Source of the DNA: Candidatus Aegiribacteria sp. MLS_C
GTDB taxonomy: Bacteria; Fermentibacterota; Fermentibacteria; Fermentibacterales; JCC-6
Direction: 5' to 3'
Assembly: GCA_002030045.1 (NCBI GenBank)
Contig: LQBI01000023.1
Coordinates: forward strand, 1 to 5,638
DNA: 5,638 nucleotides
The notes under the pieces were generated by a model. It was not told the DNA's origin and did not search any database. It worked only from the letters and a program-made list of their open reading frames with translations. Shown here piece after piece: positions 5 through 5,638 of this stretch; the first letter of the stretch is position 1; each line of letters opens with the position of its first letter. The position numbers and the translations under genes are program-made.

Positions 5-205
5 ATGAAAGAGATCAAGGTCTACCTACCGGAGGACATGCTGGCGGCCGTTGACGACTGCGCGGCGGACCAGACCCGGGACCGGTCAAACCTTATCAGG
101 CACGCGCTGAAGGGCTACCTGTCGAGATATGGGTACAAAACACCTGAGACCGTAGAAAACCCGTTGCATGTACATGCACGGGGGTCTGAGGGGAAAAATC
201 AATGA
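5..205 (+). CDS. Ribbon-helix-helix (CopG/Arc-type) DNA-binding protein, 66 aa
   Basis: Probably a small dimeric transcriptional repressor. Residues 2-8 (KEIKVYL) form the alternating N-terminal strand, followed by helix one at about 10-22 and helix two at about 27-42, beginning with the DRSNLIRHAL segment typical of the family. The strand would enter the major groove as part of a two-stranded sheet in the dimer. Residues 44-66 look like a disordered tail. Only four bases precede the ATG, so the ribosome binding site is not visible at this edge, but the window's last bases carry a perfect one (see 5631-5636). Its TGA overlaps the next ATG as ATGA. A palindrome with TGCA ends lies inside its 3' end and could be its operator. 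Autoregulation is an inference from how CopG-like proteins usually work. An antitoxin role is possible, but the following small genes do not look like known toxins. Confidence 0.75.
   Translation: MKEIKVYLPEDMLAAVDDCAADQTRDRSNLIRHALKGYLSRYGYKTPETVENPLHVHARGSEGKNQ
165..178. promoter_or_regulatory. 14-bp perfect palindrome with TGCA ends, candidate RHH operator
   Basis: The sequence TGCATGTACATGCA is a perfect palindrome lying inside the 3' end of the ribbon-helix-helix gene. From memory, plasmid CopG recognises paired TGCA boxes a few base pairs apart, and here the two TGCA boxes are six apart. CCGT at 161-164 and ACGG at 178-181 give an alternative flanking pairing, so at RNA level it could also form a small hairpin. 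Operator function is inferred from the neighbouring gene. The position inside the coding sequence and ahead of the next genes is unusual for a promoter operator. Confidence 0.35.
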
Positions 206-297: not shown

Positions 298-413
298 ACG
301 CACTACTCGGGGGCCTGGTAGCTTTCATTCTGATGGCTATTCCTTTTGCGCTTTTCATGGCCGGAGTGTTCGCCATGATCGAGAAAGACAGGGATCGGAA
401 GAATGGCAGATAA
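294..413 (+). CDS. 39-aa single-span membrane protein, unknown function
   Basis: After a short N-terminus, residues 4-29 form one uninterrupted hydrophobic helix rich in Leu, Ile, Phe, Ala and Gly, followed by a highly charged tail (EKDRDRKNGR) that by the positive-inside rule should lie in the cytoplasm. An AAGGAG at 278-283 stands ten bases before the ATG, and the ATG overlaps the preceding stop as ATGA, so this start is preferred to an upstream in-frame ATG at 168 that would overlap the repressor gene. Its last 11 bases overlap the nuclease gene. Small one-helix proteins are common in phage operons, but nothing identifies this one as a holin, spanin or toxin. Confidence 0.55.
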   Translation: MNALLGGLVAFILMAIPFALFMAGVFAMIEKDRDRKNGR

Positions 414-744
414 AGCATGGAAGCAGTTCGAGCGCCGGGTCTCCGAGTTCTTCGGGGGACGGAGGAATCCGCTCTCCGGGGGAAACGGTAAACACACCCG
501 GGCCGATGTCATCCACCCCACGCTCTTCGTCGAGTGCAAACAGCGCAAGGCTCACTCGGTATTGAGGACATGGGACGAAGCGGCGGATCAGGCGAAAGCG
601 GAAGGGAAAATCCCCGTCGTTGCCTTGAGCGAGAAGGGACGACCGGGGTTCTGGATACTTTGCAAACAGACGGACTTTTTAGCGATAGCGCTGGAAATGT
701 CGGTGAAACATCCGACGGAGGGGAACGATCCCGAAACGGAATAA
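403..744 (+). CDS. PD-(D/E)XK nuclease, Holliday-junction-resolvase-like, 113 aa
   Basis: Likely a metal-dependent endonuclease acting on branched or damaged DNA. The core motifs are visible in order: E10 in the first helix (KQFERRVSEFF), a Gly/Ser-rich turn with basic residues at 18-33 (GGRRNPLSGG), D35 in RADVI, and E44-C-K46 in VECKQRK. The order E, SGG, D, ExK matches small archaeal Hjc-type and phage resolvases. Residues 70-88 (IPVVALSEKG to FWIL) form the later core strands and turn. The spacing D35 to E44 is short compared with Hjc, suggesting a tight hairpin. The length of about 110 residues fits a minimal nuclease domain with no separate DNA-binding domain. The gene starts inside the membrane-protein gene (11-base overlap) with only a weak purine-rich ribosome binding site, so translation is probably coupled. 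A structure-specific resolvase role is inferred from motifs and neighbours; a restriction-type or repair nuclease is the alternative. Confidence 0.75.
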   Translation: MADKAWKQFERRVSEFFGGRRNPLSGGNGKHTRADVIHPTLFVECKQRKAHSVLRTWDEAADQAKAEGKIPVVALSEKGRPGFWILCKQTDFLAIALEMSVKHPTEGNDPETE

Positions 745-880: not shown

Positions 881-1870
881 ATGGAAAACGGAAAAGCATT
901 ACAGGTCATAGACAGATACGGGAAGACCGGCCTTGTCTATGCCAGAAAAGAAGAGATCGAGGCGGTGAGCGAGCAGTACGAGTCCATCGTGACTGTGCTG
1001 GAGCTTGGCCCCGATGAGTTCATTCACGTGGGCGGGGGGAATTACTACCCGCTCAAGAGTGCCACAAACAAGATCAGCGACGCCTCAGGCGTATCGTTCA
1101 CGGAGAACTGCGGCACCCGGGAAGAGGGGAACTTTCAGACCGTCGAGGTCGTCAAGAAAGAAGGAATCCTCCAGGTTACCGGAGACTATGCCGTCATCGG
1201 ATGGGCGCGGGGCTATCGGCTGAAACCGGACGGCACCAGGCGCATGTCATTAGTCTGCGAGTATGCGTTCAACGTAGTCGATCGGTGCAACATGGACATC
1301 CTCAACGATAAGAAAGATCGGTATACCACGGTAGCCGACATCAGGCGGCACCTGTTGGAGCTCAAGAAATTCGCAACACAGAGAGCATCTACCGGCGCCG
1401 AACTGCGGGTAGTCCGTGAGCTGGTCGGCATGCCCACCGCTTTCAAGGAATCCGACACGAAGAAGCCTATCGTCCTCTCACAGACGGTAGAGAGTACCAA
1501 GTTCAAGGTCGGGATAGCCCGGGAGATCATGAAGACCCCGGACGGCCGTCAGGCGGTTGTCAACGCCCTCTTCGGGACGACTACAGCCCTCTATGGTCCT
1601 CAGGGACAAGTGAGCGCTCCTGTGGACGTCACACCCTCACCACAGGCCATAGAAGCCCCGGAGGAAGAACCGGATATCTTTGCGGAACCCGAAACGGACG
1701 TCATCGCCGATCTCAAGGCTAAGCTGGAGGAATGGCTGTCCTCCGATGCAGTACAGAACCCCAAGAACCGGGAAGGGATTCAGGCACTCATCGACAACGA
1801 GGATGCCACAGAAGACGAGATCCGGCGGGTACTTGAGCACCTGGCGAAAACGTTAGGCGGTGCGGCATGA
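881..1870 (+). CDS. Hypothetical protein, candidate single-strand annealing/recombination protein, 329 aa
   Basis: The ATG at 881 is chosen because GGAGG (872-876) stands just before it. The frame stays open upstream to a TTG at 803, but that codon lies in the terminator stem. No family is firmly recognised. Residues 50-71 contain GGGNYYPLKSATNKISDASG, a pattern I associate with phage recombination-type proteins. Residues 98-140 are strand-rich (VTGDYAVIGWARGYRL, then MSLVCEYAF), and 163-188 form a helix ending ELVGMPTAF, recalling the alanine/arginine-rich helix of some annealing proteins. Residues 258-272 are an acidic linker (EEEPDIFAEPE), followed by a mostly helical C-terminus. An ordered core with an acidic linker and small C-terminal domain fits a DNA-binding protein that docks on partners. 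Its stop overlaps the Mre11-Rad50 start as ATGA, so the two are translationally coupled. The pairing of an annealing protein with an SbcCD-type nuclease is common in phages, but the assignment is inference and could be wrong. Confidence 0.45.
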   Translation: MENGKALQVIDRYGKTGLVYARKEEIEAVSEQYESIVTVLELGPDEFIHVGGGNYYPLKSATNKISDASGVSFTENCGTREEGNFQTVEVVKKEGILQVTGDYAVIGWARGYRLKPDGTRRMSLVCEYAFNVVDRCNMDILNDKKDRYTTVADIRRHLLELKKFATQRASTGAELRVVRELVGMPTAFKESDTKKPIVLSQTVESTKFKVGIAREIMKTPDGRQAVVNALFGTTTALYGPQGQVSAPVDVTPSPQAIEAPEEEPDIFAEPETDVIADLKAKLEEWLSSDAVQNPKNREGIQALIDNEDATEDEIRRVLEHLAKTLGGAA

Positions 1871-4800
1871 AGATCATAAGCACAGCAGACCTGCACTACG
1901 ACAGGGACAGACAGGCGGAGTTTTTTGCCTCCGCCAATGCACTGCTTGACGCGGCGAAATTCCACACCCCGGATCTGATCACCATCGCCGGGGACATCTT
2001 CGACAGGGCAACGAATAACACCCGGTCATCGGGATTCCCCGAGTTGATCGAATGGTTCCGGGATCTTGCGAGCATCGCCCCGGTGGCCGTTATATACGGC
2101 ACGCCTACCCATGACATACCCGGGAGCCTGGACTTCCTCGAACGGATCGAGGCGAGACATGACATCGTTATCTGCCGGCCGAATCAGACATTTGTGCTGG
2201 ACGATGATAATGTCGTCACACCTTTTGAGGCGGAGAATCCCCGCCTCCTCATCCTCGGCATCCCCGAAGTATCGAAAGGCTGGCTACTGGCGAACAAAGA
2301 CGACCTCAGTGGAGACACCACCGAGGCCGTCAAGGGGGCAATGAGATCGTACCTGCTGGGCCTGGCAGCTATCAGACAGGAGTTCTCAAGCATTCCCTGC
2401 GTCGTACTCTACCACGGAGCAATCCGGGGGGCAAGGCTGTCGGACACTCAGACACTCCCACCCGGCGGTATCGAGGTTGGAATAGATGACCTTGCCCAGA
2501 TCGGGGCGGATTACTACTCCTGCGGACACATCCACATGCGGCAGGACCTTCCCGGTCTACCCGGACGGTATGAGGGATCGATCTATCCCAAGACATGGGG
2601 CGAGCTGGAGCAGAAGGCTTTCTCCGTCGTCGAGTTCGGCGGAGATCAGGAGGCGGTCAACTATCCCCACCCGCCACGGAAAAAGATGTCCGTTAAAATC
2701 GGTGACGAAATATCGGAAGAAGACGTGGCCGGGTATCAGGTATGGGTAGAAAAGACAGTACCGGCGGGAACACCCGTCGATACGGGAACCGCCCTTGAGT
2801 ATCTGTATAAGCTCGGAGCCCTTTCCGGCTCCCGGTATACCACCAGGACAACCCACGACGAGACCACCCGGGCGAAAGAGATAACCGAGGCCACCTCTAC
2901 CTACGGCAAGGTACGGGTGTGGGCCGAGAATACCGGCGTCGCTATCCCGGCGGATACGGAAGAGAAGATCCACGCCCTCGATGCTGAGAGCGAGCGGAAA
3001 GGACTCCTCCATCAGCCGAGGCGGTGGAGACTGGACCGGCTGGAACTCCGGGGTGCTATCGGGCTGTGGAAGGGGCAGAAGAAGGAAGAGGTCGTCATCG
3101 ACTTCGAGAACCTCGACCCGGGAACGATAGCCCTTCTCGGTGACAACGGAGCCGGTAAGTCAACTATCGTCAAGAACTGCAACCCCTACCCGGAACCTAT
3201 TGGCGGGGAACGGAAGTACCAGGACCTCTTCTATCTGCGCGATTCATACTCGGCTACCTACTGGACGGATATGGTCTCGGGACTCAAGTACAAAGCCATC
3301 AAGCAGATTGACGGGAAGAATTCCAGCGGTAAAGCGGAGTTTTTCCTCTACCGGCTGAACGGGGACGGCTGGGAACCCTACGACGAAGAGGCAACCAGTG
3401 GACGGAAAGCCGGGTATGAAGCGGCGGTGATGGAGCTCTTCGGCACTCCCGAGATATTCACCCGGAGCGCCTACATCGCACAGGGCGGGGCGGATATGCC
3501 GAACACCCCGAAGGGCCGGAAAGAATTCTTCAACGAGCTCCTGGGCAACGAGTACCTCGAAGTCATGAGCCAGAGCGCCAAGAGCAGGGCGGACGGGATC
3601 GAGAGAGAGATCGACTCTACCACCGGCAGGATCGAGGGGCTCAGGTATGGGCTGGATCAGGATGGGGTACTCCTGACCACCAAGACAGCCAAGACCATCG
3701 AGATGGAAGAGGAGAAGGCAACACTCCGGGGGCTGGAAGAATCCGGCAAACTGGCAAAGGAACAACTCGAAACACTCAAAAAGGAGCAGCAGGAAAATGA
3801 ATCAATTCGACACCAGATCAGAACACTGGAAGGAACTATCTCGGATACTCGGAATCAAATCGCTGGACTGGAAAAGCAGATTGTTTCTTTTAAGGAGACA
3901 TTGCAGGGAATACCGGCTGCAGAGAAGGCTCTCGCGGATGATGAGGAAAGAAGAGCGGAACTGGAACGGGCGCAAAGTGATAAGGCTGCCCTTGAAGCTC
4001 GGAACCTCGAAGCTAGAGAGAGACATGCTCAAGCTCTGGAAGCAGTACGACTGAAGAGGGCGGAAGCCCGGGAAGCATACGATGAAGCCGATGCCAGGGT
4101 AAAAAGCATCGATCTGGATATAAAAGCTCTGGAGAGTGAGAAGTCGGCGCTGGAGCAGAAAAAGACTGTCATCGATACACCATGTCCTAAGTGTGGATAC
4201 CTTGCGCCGAATGTGGCGGCTCAGCTGCTATACATAGACGAGCGGCTCGAAGAGATAGTGGGAGACCTTTCCCATGCTCACGAAGAGATGAGCATGGCAT
4301 TAACGGAAAAAGCCGCCACCTCGGAAGAACTCGAGGCCATCATAGACCCGGAACCGCCGGAGTATGAGACCTACATCATGCCGGAGATTGAAGCCTTGAG
4401 CCCCGAGCAGAGGCATGCGTTACAAAACAAGATCGAAGCCGGTAGGAATGCAACGGCACAGATCGACGCCAAGGAAGAACAGATCCGGCAGCTCAAGGAA
4501 AAGCTCAACACCACCCGGGGAGACCTCGAAGCGGCGAAAGCTCAAGAGGACGTATTCATTGACGGAAAAGTCAAGGAAGCGGAGAAGGAATACGAAGCCC
4601 TGCGGGAAAGTTATTCGTCATGCTCCGGATCGATCAAAGCCCTGGAAGCAGAGATCACCGGCCTTGAAAAGCAACTGGCGGACATCGAGAAACGCCGGGA
4701 AGAAATCAAGCGGCTTGAGGATGAGATCGGCACGAAGCGGACCGACCTCGATACCTGGCGCTTTATCCAGAAGGCTCTCGGGCGGGACGGGGTCCAGGCC

Positions 4801-5271
4801 CTTGAGCTGGATGCCCTTGCTCCCTCTATCGCCGAGGTGGCGAACAGGCTCCTCCAGCGGGCTTACGGTCCACGGTTTGAGATAGAGTTCCGCACAACCC
4901 GGGACGCGGGGACAGGCAAGAACCGTCACCAGGTGGAGGACTTCGAGATCTACGTCCACGACCACGAAGAAGCCGAGCCGTCCCTCCAGGTGCAGACCCT
5001 CGGGACGATGAGCGGCGGCGAACGGGTGTGGATCATGAAAGCCCTGTGTGATGCCTTCGGGATCGTCAGGGAAAAGAATACTGGCCTGCAGTACATGACC
5101 ACCTTTCAGGACGAAGCAGACGGGGCCTTGAGCCCTGAGAAAAAGCACCTCTACCTCCAGATGGTCGAGGCGGCTCATGCGGAAAGTGGACGGCATCATA
5201 CCGTCTACATCACCCACGACAGCGGGATACAGGATGCGATCCCGCAGCAGATCAAGGTAAGTGAGCTTTAA
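1867..5271 (+). CDS. Fused Mre11/SbcD nuclease - Rad50/SbcC ATPase, 1134 aa
   Basis: One chain carries both halves of the DNA double-strand-end processing complex. The Mre11/SbcD phosphodiesterase occupies about 1-255: motif I D8-L-H10, motif II G42-D43, motif III as GTPTHD (78-83) with H82, motif IV H183, motif V GHIH (220-223). A cap/linker region follows to about 385. The Rad50/SbcC part has Walker A GDNGAGKST (425-433), Q-loop Q539, a coiled coil at about 565-770, zinc hook CPKC (773-776), the return coil at about 785-960, signature SGGE (1049-1052), Walker B D1082-E1083 and H-loop H1117. The C-terminus (IPQQIKVSEL) looks complete. No methionine lies between residues 274 and 469, so no obvious second start exists for a separate Rad50. 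The chain is shorter than E. coli SbcD plus SbcC together, mainly through shorter coils. The expected role is ATP-dependent opening and nucleolytic trimming of DNA ends and hairpins, in the cytoplasm. The gene starts at an ATGA overlap. Confidence 0.92.
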   Translation: MKIISTADLHYDRDRQAEFFASANALLDAAKFHTPDLITIAGDIFDRATNNTRSSGFPELIEWFRDLASIAPVAVIYGTPTHDIPGSLDFLERIEARHDIVICRPNQTFVLDDDNVVTPFEAENPRLLILGIPEVSKGWLLANKDDLSGDTTEAVKGAMRSYLLGLAAIRQEFSSIPCVVLYHGAIRGARLSDTQTLPPGGIEVGIDDLAQIGADYYSCGHIHMRQDLPGLPGRYEGSIYPKTWGELEQKAFSVVEFGGDQEAVNYPHPPRKKMSVKIGDEISEEDVAGYQVWVEKTVPAGTPVDTGTALEYLYKLGALSGSRYTTRTTHDETTRAKEITEATSTYGKVRVWAENTGVAIPADTEEKIHALDAESERKGLLHQPRRWRLDRLELRGAIGLWKGQKKEEVVIDFENLDPGTIALLGDNGAGKSTIVKNCNPYPEPIGGERKYQDLFYLRDSYSATYWTDMVSGLKYKAIKQIDGKNSSGKAEFFLYRLNGDGWEPYDEEATSGRKAGYEAAVMELFGTPEIFTRSAYIAQGGADMPNTPKGRKEFFNELLGNEYLEVMSQSAKSRADGIEREIDSTTGRIEGLRYGLDQDGVLLTTKTAKTIEMEEEKATLRGLEESGKLAKEQLETLKKEQQENESIRHQIRTLEGTISDTRNQIAGLEKQIVSFKETLQGIPAAEKALADDEERRAELERAQSDKAALEARNLEARERHAQALEAVRLKRAEAREAYDEADARVKSIDLDIKALESEKSALEQKKTVIDTPCPKCGYLAPNVAAQLLYIDERLEEIVGDLSHAHEEMSMALTEKAATSEELEAIIDPEPPEYETYIMPEIEALSPEQRHALQNKIEAGRNATAQIDAKEEQIRQLKEKLNTTRGDLEAAKAQEDVFIDGKVKEAEKEYEALRESYSSCSGSIKALEAEITGLEKQLADIEKRREEIKRLEDEIGTKRTDLDTWRFIQKALGRDGVQALELDALAPSIAEVANRLLQRAYGPRFEIEFRTTRDAGTGKNRHQVEDFEIYVHDHEEAEPSLQVQTLGTMSGGERVWIMKALCDAFGIVREKNTGLQYMTTFQDEADGALSPEKKHLYLQMVEAAHAESGRHHTVYITHDSGIQDAIPQQIKVSEL

Positions 5272-5630
5272 GAAAGTATGACAGTCGGGAAAGACCGGCA
5301 ACCAGTGAGGCCGCAAGGGCGGCAATTATCGTGGACAGCATGGTGGGCGCACGGTAAACCCCTCCGGGTCAACGCCGGACACTGGTTTGAAGGCACACAA
5401 AGGCGGATGAACTAAAGCCGTATCGGAAAGCCTTAATTGCCTGCTTCAGCACGGAACAAAAACCGGCAGGCTTATAGAGCTGATACCGAGCTACCGGGGA
5501 ATCAGGTGGCAATTGTGGTAGGACATGAACAGAGATGAGTCCAAAGGATAATGAACACGGCTTATCACATCGACGGGATTGAGCCTTGAAAGGATCGGGC
5601 CACGTTAAATCACCGGTCCCATTATTTTTA
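5272..5630 (+). ncRNA. Candidate structured RNA region; possibly group II intron 5' domain
   Basis: About 360 bases without a convincing gene contain many complementary segments: 5300-5307 with 5380-5387 (8 bp, AACCAGTG/CACTGGTT); 5310-5314 with 5319-5323 (four-base loop); 5358-5361 with 5366-5369; 5420-5426 with 5480-5486, enclosing 5439-5444 with 5466-5471 and 5452-5454 with 5463-5465; 5491-5495 with 5517-5521; 5547-5551 with 5562-5566. The 5295-5299/5374-5378 pairing conflicts with the first helix, so alternative folds exist. The overall look (GAAA-type turns, GACAGCATGGTG, GGATGAACTAAAGCCG) reminds me of domain I of group II introns, but the canonical GUGYG 5' end is not seen, no domain V is seen and no reverse transcriptase lies in the window. 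A long operon leader or a new RNA class remains possible. Confidence 0.4.
5597..5629 (+). terminator. Weak terminator-like hairpin
   Basis: GGG at 5597-5599 and CC at 5600-5601 pair with CCC at 5618-5620 and GG at 5615-5616, leaving one bulged T, and are followed by ATTATTTTT. The stem is only five pairs with a 13-base loop, so it is far weaker than the one at 805-865. It could end the large operon or be part of the structured RNA. Confidence 0.3.
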
Positions 5631-5636
5631 AGGAGG
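5631..5636 (+). promoter_or_regulatory. Consensus ribosome binding site at the window end
   Basis: AGGAGG, preceded by an A-rich lead, ends two bases before the window edge, so a start codon should follow within a few bases. No start is visible inside the window. If the window is circular, the first gene's ATG at position 5 follows after six bases, an ideal spacing. Otherwise it serves an unseen downstream gene. Confidence 0.65.
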
Positions 5637-5638
5637 AA

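Follow-up and report, generated by a model that had tools for sequence, protein, structure and literature searches.

A single-chain Mre11-Rad50 protein encoded downstream of a predicted Rad52-like gene on a bacterial contig

The Mre11/SbcD nuclease and the Rad50/SbcC motor are usually two proteins. In the window analysed here, a complete contig (C23, 5638 bp) from a bacterial genome bin of 2.98 Mb, both were read from one open reading frame. Is this frame a real fused gene, and what might its product do? The genes assigned on the contig were as follows:

5 to 205, plus strand: ribbon-helix-helix (CopG-like) regulator (PF01402, 26.3 bits against a cut-off of 20.5)
403 to 744, plus strand: Holliday-junction-resolvase-like gene (phrog_2002, E 7e-12; a 55% identical relative in viral contig L031)
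881 to 1870, plus strand: upstream partner gene, 329 aa from the ATG at 881 (phrog_13782; predicted Rad52-like annealase, from its model and Foldseek)
1867 to 5271, plus strand: fused SbcD-SbcC (Mre11-Rad50) gene, 1134 aa plus stop (single ORF, with homologous single ORFs)

The fusion gene consisted of 1134 codons in one frame without interruption, and its third-position GC was coding-like over most of the length and lower in the part coding for the coiled coil. Profile analysis showed that the N-terminal part matched TIGR00619 sbcd (E 4e-9), phrog_100 SbcD (E 5e-6) and Pfam Metallophos (24.6 bits against a cut-off of 21.5), while the C-terminal part matched phrog_77 SbcC (E 4e-40). With an Mre11-like N-terminal domain and a Rad50-like C-terminal domain in one polypeptide, the protein agreed with the definition of SbcDC. 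The nuclease residues were D8, H10, G42-D43, H82-D83, H183 and G220-HIH. The ATPase motifs were Walker A (GDNGAGKST, 425), the signature SGGE (1049), Walker B/D-loop (QDEADGAL, from 1081) and ITHD (1115). The SbcC/Rad50 set was complete (Walker A, Q-loop, CxxC hook between antiparallel coils, signature and Walker B), and the original prediction that all ABC-ATPase motifs and the zinc hook lie in this frame was borne out. Its companion statement, that all phosphodiesterase motifs are present, held for the metal-site motifs DxH, GDxxD, H and GHxH and failed for motif III, in which the usual GNHD was GTPTHD and the Asn was replaced by Thr81.

The structure of the fusion was predicted from 36 aligned proteins with a pLDDT of 84. 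The following parts were assigned:

1867 to 2634, plus strand: Mre11/SbcD phosphodiesterase domain, residues 1-256 (Pfam Metallophos; motif table; model against E. coli SbcD 4lu9, Z 27.2)
2647 to 2889, plus strand: capping domain, residues 261-341 (predicted structure; SbcD/Mre11 core match to residue ~326-330)
2899 to 2997, plus strand: C-terminal helix-loop-helix of the Mre11 part, a candidate Rad50-binding domain (helices predicted at 345-356 and 364-377)
2998 to 3018, plus strand: linker between Mre11 and Rad50, about 7 residues, 378-384 (predicted structure; Rad50 chains align from 385-387)
3019 to 3549, plus strand: Rad50/SbcC ATPase lobe I (Walker A at 3139-3165; predicted structure, structural match)
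3550 to 4173, plus strand: outgoing coiled coil, residues 562-769 (predicted structure)
4183 to 4194, plus strand: zinc hook CPKC, residues 773-776 (sequence motif)
4207 to 4779, plus strand: returning coiled coil, residues 781-971 (predicted structure)
4780 to 5268, plus strand: Rad50/SbcC ATPase lobe II (signature SGGE, Walker B DEAD, H-switch ITHD; structural match)

Comparison of the model with solved chains gave Z 27.6 for the Mre11 chain 3tho_B (residues 1-383 to chain residues 7-383), Z 25.9 for 6s6v_A (residues 1-379 to 1-395) and Z 26.9 for the SbcC chain 7yzo_D (residues 387-1134). The first Rad50 strand was predicted at residue 385. Since the Mre11 chains ended at about 379-383 and the Rad50/SbcC chains began at 385-387, the join lies at the normal chain boundary. 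A capping/helix-loop-helix-like region and the short linker were present between the two parts of the predicted structure. The claim of Mre11 and Rad50 in a single polypeptide was thus upheld by the model (Mre11 1-383, Rad50 387-1134), and also by homologues of the same order and length. Compared with the separate SbcD and SbcC of E. coli and Thermotoga, the fusion had all domains in equal order and strong fold matches; it differed in being one chain, in its motif III and in an identity of only 18-25% in structural alignments. The ends of Mre11 and Rad50 in the Thermotoga complex are about 28 Å apart, and 9-12 residues would bridge them (PMC3175470), somewhat more than the linker of the window's fusion. 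It is reasonable to expect that fusion fixes a 1:1 stoichiometry and constrains the geometry of nuclease and head.

Full-length single-frame homologues were obtained from 5 viral and 8 MAG contigs, with about 31-37% identity. The viral contigs came from IMG/VR (L030, L031, L032 and L034, about 35% identity; L087, 37%), and the MAG contigs (L065-L070, L075 and L076) from Treponema and other Spirochaetes. Elusimicrobia, Terriglobia and Treponema contributed partial copies. The viral relatives were located by an SbcC profile and a fusion profile; the SbcD half was too little conserved for a profile of its own. Scans of the viral contigs with the fusion or the upstream protein alone gave no match, the automatically chosen patterns having landed on variable stretches. 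At E 1e-5 the fusion was not found in any named phage of the collection searched. Searches of 42 genomes from the window's phylum and a sample of 392 from the phylum of L068 recovered the fusion in 1 and 2 genomes, respectively, a sporadic occurrence as expected for a mobile gene. The host bin had, on contig C6, an SbcD homologue with an SbcC-like frame overlapping it downstream, so the fusion appears additional to a separate host pair.

In a tree of 41 rows, which did not include L087, 14 fused rows and L079 formed one clade with support 100. L077 (Campylobacter) was a distant fused member, and L064 was a separate, very divergent fusion of unsure placement. L079 (Bacilli, 7001-10347) lay inside the fused clade, yet its frame was broken between nuclease and capping domains, the two pieces overlapping by ATGA. 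This overlap and an upstream GAGG suggest that the split is real rather than an assembly frameshift, and it is probably a secondary fission; among 296 genomes of its class the re-split form occurred only in L079 itself. The nearest split relatives of the fusion were on Burkholderiales plasmids and in other phages, among them gp75-gp74 of Leptospira phage LE1. Phage LE1 resembled the window in having a phrog_13782-family gene (gp76) upstream of sbcD and differed in encoding two genes. The Burkholderiales plasmid pairs were also two genes, separated by a small additional one, and phrog_13782 was not detected beside them, nor beside L077 or L079.

The stop of the upstream gene overlapped the fusion start by 4 bases (ATGA, 1867-1870). 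In some thirty loci sbcD, whether fused or split, was preceded by a member of the phrog_13782 family, often with a 4-nt overlap, and phage genes were nearby in the relatives; the fused family thereby connects phrog_13782 to Mre11-Rad50. The upstream protein was modelled with a pLDDT of 83.7. Its best Foldseek matches were human RAD52 (E 0.015, weak), and its VIA Z scores were 6.7 with human RAD52, 5.2 with Mgm101 and 3.0 with RecT, all below 8, where a common arrangement is not excluded. These models suggest that phrog_13782 is a Rad52-like annealase. The adjacent genes of an exonuclease and a putative annealase recall Red exo/beta and RecE/RecT, whereas in the window the nuclease role falls to an MR complex and the candidate annealase belongs to an unannotated family with a weak Rad52/RecT fold match. 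The record of LE1 gp76 (L006 3752-4705) notes peptidase family M20/M25/M40; the protein belongs to the same family as the predicted Rad52-like gene.

Helicase, replication-initiation or loader, and terminase genes were neighbours of the fusion in L068, L031, L075 and L076; the terminase was seen in L068, L031 and L076, and primase and SSB also in L068. ParB-like genes were among the neighbours in relatives. The fused family thus comprised phages, prophages and contigs resembling mobile elements, and neither this phage context nor the conserved upstream gene figured in the original prediction. No capsid or terminase gene was found on the window's 5.6 kb contig, and we infer from the context of the relatives that it is a mobile element.

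The implied novelty of a Mre11-Rad50 fusion did not stand, as the kind has been known since 2011, when Yoshida, Claverie and Ogata described fusions in Mimivirus (R555) and Bacillus phage 0305phi8-36, and further ones in a Clostridium kluyveri plasmid, a Deferribacter megaplasmid and some eukaryotes, and proposed that viruses and plasmids spread them (PMC3175470). Like the window's fusion, these had the nuclease N-terminal and the ATPase C-terminal, with a capping and helix-loop-helix region and a short linker; they lay on mobile elements, as is presumed here, in hosts that also had a separate canonical pair. The window's fusion differed in having the upstream Rad52-like gene as part of its unit, and, as far as testable with the 2011 sequences outside the tree, in its sequence clade. 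The open-licence papers searched did not describe the breadth of the family, the change in motif III or the Rad52-like partner.

We consider it likely that the window's frame is a true Mre11-Rad50 fusion gene belonging to a phage, a prophage or a related mobile element, and that its product probably trims DNA ends for the Rad52-like neighbour to anneal. The chance that a sequencing or assembly error joined two ordinary adjacent genes is practically negligible. The contig is a MAG contig, and other phages and plasmids as a rule carry the two genes separately; however, a homologue search, as called for in the original prediction, found the same full-length frame in at least 13 further contigs of independent samples, so homologues are not always split. 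The boundary was also smooth, passing from the Mre11 helix-loop-helix through the short linker to the first Rad50 strand with no remnant of a stop or start. Judged by these sequences, the fusion is genuine, and no artefact or mis-call, because many independent contigs share the full-length frame. It is very unlikely that an internal start (e.g. the GTG at 2917, codon 351, with a weak AAGG upstream) yields a separate SbcC as well, so that both forms occur in cells. The stretch 275-468 was free of Met as had been claimed (the flanking Met residues are 274 and 469). It does contain GTG codons in frame, at 287 and 351, so the absence of Met alone cannot exclude an internal start. What argues against it is that no internal start with a ribosome-binding site was conserved across the fused loci compared, and that a product starting at codon 351, ahead of most of the helix-loop-helix, would retain a piece of Mre11.

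A host defence or SMC-like system in place of a phage recombination enzyme was highly improbable. The weak PADLOC matches to LmuB and JetC on which it draws lay nearly all in the coiled coil and were driven by it, the neighbours in relatives were phage replication and packaging genes, and an Mre11 nuclease is found specifically in MR complexes; the LmuB and JetC identities were rejected as a coiled-coil artefact. That the nuclease part is inactive, the protein acting chiefly as a tether for DNA ends or a structural clamp, deserves more weight and is still unlikely. The motif III Asn is the usual metal-binding residue, and without it nuclease activity of the fusion cannot be assumed. The fused members covering motif III had GTP(S/T)HD (GTKTHD in L087), and the Burkholderiales plasmid relatives had GTFSHE. 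In the fused members L030, L032, L034, L074 and L076 the GHxH motif was GDIH, with Asp for the first His. The replacement of Asn by Thr or Ser and the GDIH of these five relatives would fit an inactive nuclease, as would Mimivirus R555, which departs from consensus with an Asp at the corresponding active-site His (PMC3175470). However, the remaining metal ligands and the catalytic His-Asp were all retained in the window's fusion, and the Ser conserved in the Burkholderiales plasmid relatives points to a lineage-specific site rather than decay.

Under the favoured reading of a genuine phage or mobile-element fusion, two chains would pair through their nuclease parts and their ATP-sandwiched ATPase heads to form the usual M2R2 machine. 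Each nuclease would be held beside the head regulating it by its own helix-loop-helix and short linker. The fusion would then probably act during phage replication, trimming DNA ends, hairpins or blocked ends, after which the upstream Rad52-like protein would anneal the exposed strands. We give somewhat less than an even chance to the wider proposal that the pair is an unrecognised kind of phage two-part recombinase, consisting of a single-chain Mre11-Rad50 resector and a dedicated Rad52-fold annealase (phrog_13782), in phages and prophages of Spirochaetes and other bacteria. If true, the eukaryotic Mre11-Rad50/Rad52 route would have a minimal counterpart in this pair. If phrog_13782 is a Rad52-like annealase, it might serve genome engineering in bacteria without recombineering tools. 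A single-chain MR complex would be handy for structural and single-molecule work on end resection, each nuclease being tied to one head.

The region after the fusion gene contained no Rfam family at gathering level. A hairpin, GCYACC-GGGGANTCA-GGTGGC, was present 3' of the fusion (5485-5517 of the window) and recurred in L031 (about 983-1016), L087, L088 and L089; of these four viral contigs, L031 and L087 also had the fusion. A tRNA-like sequence was seen near the hairpin in L031, L087 and L088 by eye only, and ARAGORN called no tRNA in either the window or L031. The contig ends shared no repeat of 8 or more bases, and the joined end was not found in the viral contigs. When the contig end TTTTTAAGGAGGAA (5620-5638) was joined to the start AGGTATGAAA (1-20), a ribosome-binding site came to lie well placed for the first gene; as a guess, the contig may be circular.
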